From an uncultured Mucilaginibacter sp. (GTDB lineage: Bacteria > Bacteroidota > Bacteroidia > Sphingobacteriales > Sphingobacteriaceae), in NCBI GenBank assembly GCA_913775265.1, contig CAJYJH010000065.1, positions 248,001 to 312,000 of the forward strand: DNA of 64,000 nt. The letters are read 5' to 3'. The translations under genes and the position numbers were made by a program. Position 1 is the first letter of the stretch. The number at the start of each line of letters is the position of its first letter. Below, in pieces: positions 13,880 to 44,727 of this stretch. The notes below the pieces were generated by a model. The model was not told the origin of the DNA, did no database searches, and was given only the letters and a program-made list of their open reading frames with translations.

Positions 13880-13901
13880 AGAATTGATTGTGCAATTTCC
13901 A

Positions 13902-13933
13902 TTCCTCCCTCGAGAGGGCAGGGAGGGGTTTAG
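13902..13933 (+). repeat. R1: GC-rich hairpin plus G-tract repeat
   Basis: ttcctccctcgagagggcagggaggggtttag. Confidence 0.75.
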
Positions 13934-13952
13934 CGAACATAAATTAAAACTT

Positions 13953-14378
13953 ATGCCTAAAATCATCCCATACAACCCTAAACTTTTGCCATTAGCTAAA
14001 AAGCTAAGACAAAATATGACCTATGGTGAGGTTTTGCTTTGGAATGAATTGAAGCAAAATAAGTTGTTAGGTTTCGATTTTGACAGACAGTGCTGCATTG
14101 ATAAGTATATTGTAGATTTCTATTGCAAGAACTTGATGCTTGCCATTGAAGTAGACGGACTTTCACACCACCATGAAGATGCTTTTATAAAAGATAATCA
14201 TCGACAGGCAAAATTAGAAAGCTTCGGCATCACTGTTATCCGCTTCACTGAGGCGGAGGTGAAGCACGATCTGCTGAATGTATTACGAACAATTGAAGCG
14301 ACAGTTATTGACCTAATTAAATCTAAAAATAGCATCAAGTTGCCGGATGGGTTTGATAAGCAATTATTGGAAAATTAA
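13953..14378 (+). CDS. DUF559 domain-containing endonuclease-like protein (Vsr-like)
   Basis: Likely start MPKIIPYNPKLLPLAKKL at 13953 (ORF opens at 13884). RQNMTYGEVLLWNELKQNKLLGFDFDRQCCIDKYIVDFYCKNLMLAIEVDGLSHH is the DUF559 signature. Confidence 0.85.
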   Translation: MPKIIPYNPKLLPLAKKLRQNMTYGEVLLWNELKQNKLLGFDFDRQCCIDKYIVDFYCKNLMLAIEVDGLSHHHEDAFIKDNHRQAKLESFGITVIRFTEAEVKHDLLNVLRTIEATVIDLIKSKNSIKLPDGFDKQLLEN

Positions 14379-14390
14379 CTTATCGATTTA

Positions 14391-14421
14391 TAACCCCTCC
14401 CTGCCCTCCCCAAGGAGGGAT
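14391..14421 (-). repeat. R2: inverted copy of R1
   Basis: taacccctccctgccctccccaaggagggat; reverse complement atccctccttggggagggcagggaggggtta. Confidence 0.8.
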
Positions 14422-14471
14422 TTGATTTCACTTCAAATATTAATGTCTTATTTTATATCTAGGAGCTGTTC

Positions 14472-14503
14472 AACCCTCCTTGGGGAGAGCAGGGACGGGT
14501 TTA
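14472..14503 (+). repeat. R3: third copy, same orientation as R1
   Basis: aaccctccttggggagagcagggacgggttta. Confidence 0.8.
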
Positions 14504-42622: not shown

Positions 42623-43801
42623 TTGAACGAATTAAACGATAAAATTAAAGACTTCGATTTTGCAGCCGGCGAACTGCTGTTGATCAACAAGCCATACCGC
42701 TGGACAAGCTTTGACATTGTAGGCAAGGTGCGCAACGCTTTTAAACCGCTTAAACTAAAAGTTGGGCATGCGGGTACCTTAGACCCATTGGCTACTGGCT
42801 TACTGATAGTTTGCACCGGCAAGATGACTAAGCAAATCGATAGCTTTCAGGCCGAAGAAAAGGAGTACACCGGTACCATGGTATTGGGCGCAACTACGCC
42901 TTCTTACGATATGGAAACCGAGCCGGATCAGACTTATGACATTGTTCACTTGAATGAGCAGTATCTGAAAGAGGCCTGTGCGCAATTCATCGGCGAAATT
43001 CAACAATATCCACCTGCGCATTCTGCTATTAAGATTAACGGCGAACGCCTGTACGAGAAGGCGCGGCGCGGCGAAGATGTTGAATTAAGATTGCGTACTA
43101 TCACTATAACCGAGTTTGAATTAACCCGTATCGAACTCCCGGAAGTTGATTTTAGAGTAGTATGCAGTAAAGGAACTTACATTCGCTCTCTGGTTCACGA
43201 TTTTGGTAAAGCCGTAAATAGCGGCGCCTACTTGTCAAGGTTAAGGCGTACCCGCAGTGGTAACTTTAAAATACAAGATGCCTGGGAAGTGATGGAGTTA
43301 GTTAGTGTGATTAAAGGACTAAAGGAAGCCCCTCCCAAACCCTCCCCGGAAGGGAGGGCTTTTGAAGAAGATACGATTAGTGTCTTTCGTGAGACTGCTG
43401 ACCCTTTGCTGTACGAGCAACTCAAAGATTTTAGTCGCTCTAATCGGCATTATGCAAATGAGGCTGAAAATCTATTGTGGCAACTGTTAAGAAATAATAG
43501 TACCGGTTACAAAATACGCAGACAGCACGCCATAGATAGTTATATTGCTGATTTTGTATGTCTGCAAAAAGGATTGATTATTGAAGTGGACGGCGGACAT
43601 CATCACGCCAATAAAGAGGCTGATAATGAACGAACCGAAGTATTGAATCAATTAGGTTTTAAAGTGATAAGGTTTGAAAATTCTGAAGTCATACAAGCAC
43701 CACAAAAGGTATATAATATAATTGCTACCGAAATACAGAGTTTGCCAGACAGATTAAAAGTCCTCCCTACCGGGGAGGATTTAGGAGGGGCTTCTCTATG
43801 A
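42623..43801 (+). CDS. truB: TruB tRNA pseudouridine(55) synthase fused in frame to a C-terminal DUF559 endonuclease-like domain
   Basis: TruB: LLINKPYRWTSFDIVGKVRNAFKPLKLKVGHAGTLDPLATGLLIVCTG; DUF559: ENLLWQLLRNNSTGYKIRRQHAIDSYIADFVCLQKGLIIEVDGGHHH; single uninterrupted frame, TTG start. Confidence 0.9.
   Translation: MNELNDKIKDFDFAAGELLLINKPYRWTSFDIVGKVRNAFKPLKLKVGHAGTLDPLATGLLIVCTGKMTKQIDSFQAEEKEYTGTMVLGATTPSYDMETEPDQTYDIVHLNEQYLKEACAQFIGEIQQYPPAHSAIKINGERLYEKARRGEDVELRLRTITITEFELTRIELPEVDFRVVCSKGTYIRSLVHDFGKAVNSGAYLSRLRRTRSGNFKIQDAWEVMELVSVIKGLKEAPPKPSPEGRAFEEDTISVFRETADPLLYEQLKDFSRSNRHYANEAENLLWQLLRNNSTGYKIRRQHAIDSYIADFVCLQKGLIIEVDGGHHHANKEADNERTEVLNQLGFKVIRFENSEVIQAPQKVYNIIATEIQSLPDRLKVLPTGEDLGGASL
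43325..43363 (-). repeat. R4: left inverted repeat
   Basis: gaagcccctcccaaaccctccccggaagggagggctttt. Confidence 0.85.
43756..43794 (+). repeat. R5: right inverted repeat
   Basis: aaaagtcctccctaccggggaggatttaggaggggcttc. Confidence 0.85.
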
Positions 43802-44727
43802 AAATCTATAACCACATTAACGATTTTCAACGACTCAATAATGCCGTAGTTACCATCGGTACCTTTGATGGTGTACATCAGGGGCACCGGCAAATAATTG
43901 CCCGCCTTAAAGAACTCGCCCGGCAAACCGGTGGCGAAACGGTAATCCTGACATTTTTTCCGCATCCGCGGATGATCATTCATCCCGAAGACCAGGATTT
44001 AAAACTGATTACTACCATACACGAACGCGCCGCGTTGCTGGAGCAGTTAGGGGTAGATCATTTAATTATCACACCTTTTTCGCGCGATTTTTCAAATCAA
44101 TTAGCCGAAGCCTATATCAAAGATGTTTTAGTAAATAAGATAGGTACACGCAAAATCATCATCGGGTACGATCATCGCTTCGGTAAAGACCGTCAGGGCG
44201 GATTGTCTGATTTGCAACAGGCCGCACCGGTTTATGGTTTCGAAGTAATTGAGATACCTGAGCAGGATATTGACCACGTCACTGTAAGTTCGACCCGCAT
44301 ACGCGAAGCTTTGCTTAAGGCCGACATTGAGCAAGCCAATAATTTTTTGGGCTATCCTTTTTTTATTACCGGAAAGGTGATACGCGGCAACCAGATTGGT
44401 AGGCAAATTGGTTACCCAACCGCTAATTTACTGGTAGAAGAAAACTATAAGCTAATACCGGCCGATGGGATTTTTGCTGTTACAGTGCAGCTCAATGACG
44501 AAATTTTTCAAGGTATGGCCTATATCGGTCACCGGCCAACCATCAATGGCATGACGCGCAATATCGAGGTAAATATTTTTGATTTTAACCGCGATATATA
44601 CAACCAAACCCTGCAAATGAATTTTATTCATTTTGTGCGGCACGATGTTAAGTTTTCATCTTTAGATGGATTGAAAGACCAACTGGCGCAAGACAGGCTG
44701 GATGTCCTGGCGCTTTTAAATGGCTAA
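43798..44727 (+). CDS. ribF: Bifunctional riboflavin kinase/FAD synthetase
   Basis: VTIGTFDGVHQGHRQIIARL; TFFPHPRMI; STRIREAL; GKVIRGNQIGRQIGYPTANL. Confidence 0.94.
   Translation: MKIYNHINDFQRLNNAVVTIGTFDGVHQGHRQIIARLKELARQTGGETVILTFFPHPRMIIHPEDQDLKLITTIHERAALLEQLGVDHLIITPFSRDFSNQLAEAYIKDVLVNKIGTRKIIIGYDHRFGKDRQGGLSDLQQAAPVYGFEVIEIPEQDIDHVTVSSTRIREALLKADIEQANNFLGYPFFITGKVIRGNQIGRQIGYPTANLLVEENYKLIPADGIFAVTVQLNDEIFQGMAYIGHRPTINGMTRNIEVNIFDFNRDIYNQTLQMNFIHFVRHDVKFSSLDGLKDQLAQDRLDVLALLNG

Follow-up and report, generated by a model that had tools for sequence, protein, structure and literature searches.

The window, a 64,000-nt stretch of a Mucilaginibacter genome (G000; other G numbers denote comparison genomes and L numbers individual loci), carries at 42623–43801 a single open frame of 392 aa that begins with TTG. 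Its host part, truB (42623–43318, + strand), encodes a complete tRNA pseudouridine synthase B with the Pfam domains TruB_N (residues 46–187) and TruB_C_2 (188–228), and plain relatives end at the equivalent point. The frame continues through R4 (43325–43363, + strand), the terminal repeat on the left side, whose internal stem is CCCTCCC/GGGAGGG; R4 is read in frame as APPKPSPEGRAF and also flanks DUF559 at many other sites. It then enters a DUF559 nuclease domain of the PD-(D/E)XK type (43418–43735, + strand; residues 266–371, E 9e-31), supported by Pfam, alignment and predicted fold and with its catalytic residues present (DFVC...LIIEVDGGHHH). The right terminal repeat R5 (43756–43794, – strand), read in frame as KVLPTGEDLGGAS, is an inverted copy of R4; by direct count, R4 and the reverse complement of R5 match at 35 of 39 positions. 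The fusion ends in an ATGA that overlaps the start of the ribF open frame (43798–44727, + strand). R5 stops 3 nt ahead of the ribF ATG at 43798 and contains an AGGAGG (43783–43788, + strand) 9 nt upstream of it. A preliminary description of this DNA had claimed just this stop-free reading of truB into ribF, the extent of the repeat match, the spacing to ribF and the absence of a Met codon between the TruB part and the DUF559 core (from R4 to the core we count zero); it was borne out on each point, and every one of its coordinates at truB–DUF559–ribF is correct.

Two ways of expressing the nuclease had been offered, as a TruB–nuclease chimera or from an internal start. The chimera is the better reading and an internal start is unlikely, because the inserts in leucyl-tRNA synthetase (LeuRS), a helicase and a mutase described below sit mid-protein. 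Structure prediction for the whole fusion was of low confidence (pLDDT 62, linkers <50); as far as such a model can be trusted, the repeat-coded linkers look unstructured.

The state of the truB–ribF junction varies among relatives. Of 150 genus genomes, 142 yielded TruB, each as a single copy apart from one fragmentary case. The truB–DUF559 fusion with both repeats is present in six close species (G012, G144, G125, G005, G086, G019), and the fusion also occurs in G021, which is more distant. In G124 and G142, the nearest two species, the truB end carries the right repeat alone, in frame and with the ATGA ending kept, while in G141, the sister of G005, an in-frame deletion at the truB end has taken out the nuclease and most of both repeats. 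Other species have a plain TruB end about 20 residues past a DAWEVMELV motif. In a TruB+RibF tree, from which G021 was left out, the fusion is limited to one clade among the rows used and is patchy within it: fused G086 has the plain G033 as its sister (99/98), and fused G005 the deleted G141 (100/99). The unit was therefore gained at this junction and lost several times. Thus, plain, deleted and remnant relatives support the compact repeat–nuclease–repeat insertion that the preliminary description had inferred. Of the two things it hoped to learn by aligning truB–ribF with relatives, nuclease-less states were indeed found, but a target-site duplication could not be shown. An ancestral TruB–DUF559 fusion without repeats, which would have refuted the inference, is not what relatives show; TruB–DUF559 fusions always have repeats. 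At L029, the truB end of another species, a different repeat-like in-frame filler is present.

TruB is just one site of a phylum-wide phenomenon. DUF559 was found in 135 of the 150 genus genomes, with many copies lying within very long open frames, and a genome search for repeat-bounded DUF559, as had been suggested earlier, returned dozens of further DUF559–repeat inserts, so that the other refuting condition of the preliminary description, a lack of such associations elsewhere, does not hold either. In-frame inserts occur in at least 12 unrelated host protein families, often indispensable ones. Within the genus these include an Lhr-like helicase (between motifs II and III), methylmalonyl-CoA mutase and LeuRS (two sites), together with N-terminal fusions of DUF559 to HisF and to HisH. 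Bacteroidota and some related MAGs add a third LeuRS site, IleRS, MetH (three sites), PurL and TsaB, as well as HsdR, HsdM, type ISP enzymes and a TPR protein. Two inserts in one gene were seen in MetH (L265) and in LeuRS (L269). A contig labelled Candidatus Saccharibacteria (L281) also encodes MetH, with DUF559 inserted into the activation domain; the contig may be a Bacteroidota one that was misbinned. HisF fusions have lost the native ATG, so that HisF can be made only as a nuclease–HisF chain. A short N-terminal HisF stump in G125, G086 and probably G000 resembles the last nuclease helix and, on this sequence resemblance, is read as an eroded insert. HisF is without its customary ATG at L167 (the G000 copy) and also at L171 and L163, with an N-terminal stump (LDQIKQHIRSG in G000) similar to the end of a lost DUF559 insert.

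At matching loops, close relatives exist in filled, repeat-pair-only and empty states. The helicase loop holds the full unit in G019, G144, G052, G039 and G123, two repeats joined in frame without the nuclease in G124 and in G000 (TPALSKGEDPPPLGEGWGGV; L178, G000:C78:216000-218400), and is short in G006. LeuRS site 1, which maps to a short loop of the solved Thermus LeuRS, is full in G041, has repeat pairs in G064 and G094, and is empty in G000, G086, G124, G141, G005 and G006. LeuRS site 2 is full in G064, G076 and G094, has a repeat pair in G019 and is empty in others. Judged by the open frame only, a palindromic insert thus stands in frame in conserved genes and is absent from the same genes of relatives. 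In each of eight genomes that carry a LeuRS insert, all LeuRS matches fall within one gene (an extra weak match in G444 belongs to a different frame), so it must be the interrupted gene that provides the enzyme. Inspection by eye revealed no target-site duplication beside the inserts, where the adjoining host loops are too variable. Nuclease-less repeat pairs were also observed in G010 (L141, L139), where they keep the frame both inside KdpB and at two positions of the fused methylmalonyl-CoA mutase. In other species the LeuRS site 1 loops L151, L154 and L157, like the truB end at L029, are filled by other in-frame repeat-like sequences, for example SVVSDQLSDNSQLTTDN and ESGKQKAESI; with such filler in the same loops, site tolerance and frame selection explain where inserts survive.

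The terminal repeats were evaluated on 82 homologous domains from 80 loci, with 73 control pairs taken from the same loci. The local inverted-repeat score between flanks reached at least 30 for 68 of the 82 inserts and for none of the 73 controls; the mean was 46 for inserts and 19 for controls, whose maximum was 28, and the maximum obtained after shuffling was 29 (first set). The flanking repeats are not due to chance. They are C/T-rich, hairpin-forming and nearly without stop codons, which makes read-through possible. Among 116 inserts whose open frames span 250 aa or more, all three frames are used by the left repeat (34, 36 and 16 cases) as well as by the right one (16, 61 and 8 cases), indicating that the repeats are conserved as DNA and not as peptide.

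Genomes with intragenic DUF559 have more repeat copies than the rest (median 9 versus 3, p 2e-7), and the excess is retained once the two repeats of one insert are subtracted (p 2e-4). Repeats are present in DUF559-free genomes too (median 5 copies); something other than DUF559 may move repeats, or those in DUF559-free genomes may be relics. The link between nuclease and repeat is strong in anatomy but only correlative in copy number, and the use of copy number as a strict marker of DUF559 was dropped as resting on correlation only. RAYT was considered as a mover of the repeats and rejected, since RAYT flanks carry different repeats and repeat-rich G012 is without RAYT. The RAYT genes of the genus have their own inverted GTAG-type repeats with TTTGTAG motifs (L083, L084, L085, L087). 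G012 combines 37 copies of the C/T-rich repeat with zero Y1 transposases; Y1_Tnp is missing from G012, G005, G086 and G125, and C/T-rich repeats are present in all four.

The nuclease meets the criteria for DUF559 (PF04480), a Vsr-like PD-(D/E)XK family, by profile match and conserved catalytic residues, with an invariant DF...E.DG..H pattern in the DUF559 alignment. Its model (pLDDT 84) matches 3hrl, the I-Bth0305I catalytic domain and, more weakly, Vsr; among annotated enzymes, the homing endonuclease I-Bth0305I is the best structural match. Values of dN/dS between 0.02 and 0.15 (unsaturated pairs only) show purifying selection on the nuclease. For a DUF559 protein of Caulobacter, a function as Vsr-type repair nuclease has been proposed (PMC12907096), which makes a repair role possible for stand-alone DUF559.

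In a tree built from 63 domains, inserts from the mutase, TruB and LeuRS make up one clade (100/100), to which the helicase inserts attach (100/95); HisF/HisH inserts are another clade (100/98), and free-standing genes fall outside. In G000, the nuclease at the TruB site clusters with nucleases from LeuRS sites (96/87), and the left repeat there does not use the frame seen in other truB fusions. Tree position and repeat frame together suggest a separate insertion at truB in G000. This remains unproven, as the AU test does not exclude that all TruB-site nucleases form a single clade (p 0.148). Distances between hosts track those between inserts at LeuRS site 1 (r 0.58) and at LeuRS site 2 (r 0.93, yet one permutation reached 0.91), while the value for the mutase is r 0.09, with hosts too alike. 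Host–insert congruence is mixed overall, with LeuRS site 1 pointing to long vertical residence.

We consider it probable, though well short of settled, that these units are a selfish, repeat-bounded element of the homing-nuclease type that lives in frame in host genes and is translated with the host protein; its mobility and DNA cutting are inferred. The unit would insert into a tolerant surface loop or protein end and be read through by way of its nearly stop-free repeats. At most sites the Vsr/I-Bth0305I-type nuclease has no start of its own and would be made, unspliced, as a domain of the host protein. That chimeric proteins are made is likewise an inference, as is nuclease-driven spread: the enzyme would recognise or cut DNA, and the unit would be copied when cut empty alleles undergo homing-like repair, or through repeat-guided insertion. 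Deletions presumably leave stumps or pairs of repeats behind, and an element fixed in essential single-copy genes may be shielded because only in-frame loss is viable there. In favour of this explanation stand the in-frame units in many unrelated hosts, their filled, pair-only and empty states, the interrupted single LeuRS, the flanking inverted repeats conserved as DNA, the constrained nuclease with its I-Bth0305I-like fold, the kinship of nucleases from different hosts, the distinct repeats of RAYT genes and the excess of repeat copies alongside intragenic DUF559. Against it count the lack of any observed transposition, cutting, expression or target-site duplication, the repeats in DUF559-free genomes, the unproven status of repeated insertion at truB and the sign of long vertical residence at LeuRS site 1. 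The wider proposition, that an endonuclease gene mobilised by its own hairpin repeats has invaded essential Bacteroidota genes as an unspliced host-protein domain, with the host as expression platform, and so represents a new class of mobile elements, can be advanced only tentatively, as something about which we remain slightly more doubtful than convinced.

What is mobile could be the repeats themselves, if another enzyme or template switching moves them; DUF559 would then be a captured passenger and the nuclease-less pairs the basic form. The in-frame pairs without nuclease in KdpB, the mutase and LeuRS and the occurrence of repeats in DUF559-free genomes fit such a scheme, but purifying selection maintains the nuclease at many sites, DUF559 recurs phylum-wide together with C/T-rich repeats, and the obvious mover, RAYT, has other repeats and is missing in repeat-rich G012; we regard it as unlikely. 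Purifying selection on the nuclease would equally be expected if each site were an ancient single insertion followed by vertical descent and loss, with DUF559 kept for some use to host or cell as a domesticated fusion. The truB fusion clade with its clear losses, the distance correlation at LeuRS site 1 and the eroded HisF stumps agree with this, whereas the many unrelated hosts, the possible presence of two inserts per gene (L265, L269) and, for G000, both the grouping of its nuclease with LeuRS-site nucleases and its deviating left-repeat frame do not, and domestication from single insertions seems to us rather improbable.

Residence inside essential enzymes such as LeuRS would also be understandable if some unrecognised form of protein or RNA splicing took the insert out before the host protein functions. 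Pfam scans, however, found a Hint/intein domain in 0 of 16 fused proteins, and intein junction residues (Cys/Ser on the N side; HN plus Cys/Ser/Thr on the C side) were not found at insert junctions. Among Rfam covariance models for group I and group II introns, the best match reached 19.2 bits (E 0.48), below the gathering score of 32. An intein or intron identity was rejected on these grounds, and RNA splicing would not need the frame that is kept across repeats and insert; a hidden splicing process can hardly be entertained. The selfish in-frame element is our preferred reading.

The nearest precedents are two systems with which the element shares one half each, Rickettsia palindromic elements (RPEs) and inteins with homing endonucleases; it can be likened to an RPE with an added endonuclease, or to a non-splicing intein. 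RPEs were reportedly described by Ogata et al. in 2000. They are palindromic mobile DNA that lies in frame in conserved protein genes and is translated, and a gmk product carrying an RPE stayed active (PMC2229807). The present unit resembles RPEs as an in-frame palindromic insert in conserved genes. Unlike RPEs, which are 105–146 bp long and without a nuclease, it has two separate hairpin repeats with a nuclease of about 110 aa in between, and it also differs in repeat sequence and phylum; since it carries DUF559, it fails the RPE criterion of a lone short palindrome with no coding gene. Inteins share with it the endonuclease-coding in-frame insertion into essential conserved genes and the patchy distribution, but the DUF559 unit lacks Hint and splice-junction residues, is bounded by DNA repeats and occupies tolerant loops, not active sites. 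I-Bth0305I, a free-standing Vsr-like homing endonuclease, is similar in the fold of its catalytic domain; DUF559 units differ in their inverted-repeat flanks and, for the majority of those analysed, in being fused into host proteins. REPIN/RAYT systems likewise place hairpin repeats, often as inverted pairs, beside a nuclease gene, but the nuclease here is PD-(D/E)XK and not HUH, and its repeats have no GTAG tags.

The element looks undescribed: no published account was found in the open-access literature on DUF559, REPs, Vsr-like homing nucleases and in-frame palindromes, subscription journals being outside the scope. If the preferred reading is true, protein-coding selfish DNA extends from short Rickettsia palindromes to a phylum-wide nuclease-bearing element, and essential enzymes such as LeuRS, IleRS, MetH and TruB can permanently host an in-frame nuclease domain that looks active. 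This would have a bearing on the origin of new protein domains and loops, and for annotation it would mean that many odd LeuRS, HisF and MetH architectures share one cause. Filled, emptied and eroded sites would form a natural series for testing homing without splicing.

The window also contains a free-standing DUF559 unit (13901–14501), with inverted repeats on both sides that are C/G-rich. The second DUF559 gene of the genome (13953–14378, + strand) has its own ATG and belongs to a different nuclease clade. It lies between a left repeat (13901–13930, + strand) and a right inverted repeat (14392–14421, – strand), with a further copy at 14474–14501, about 50 nt on.
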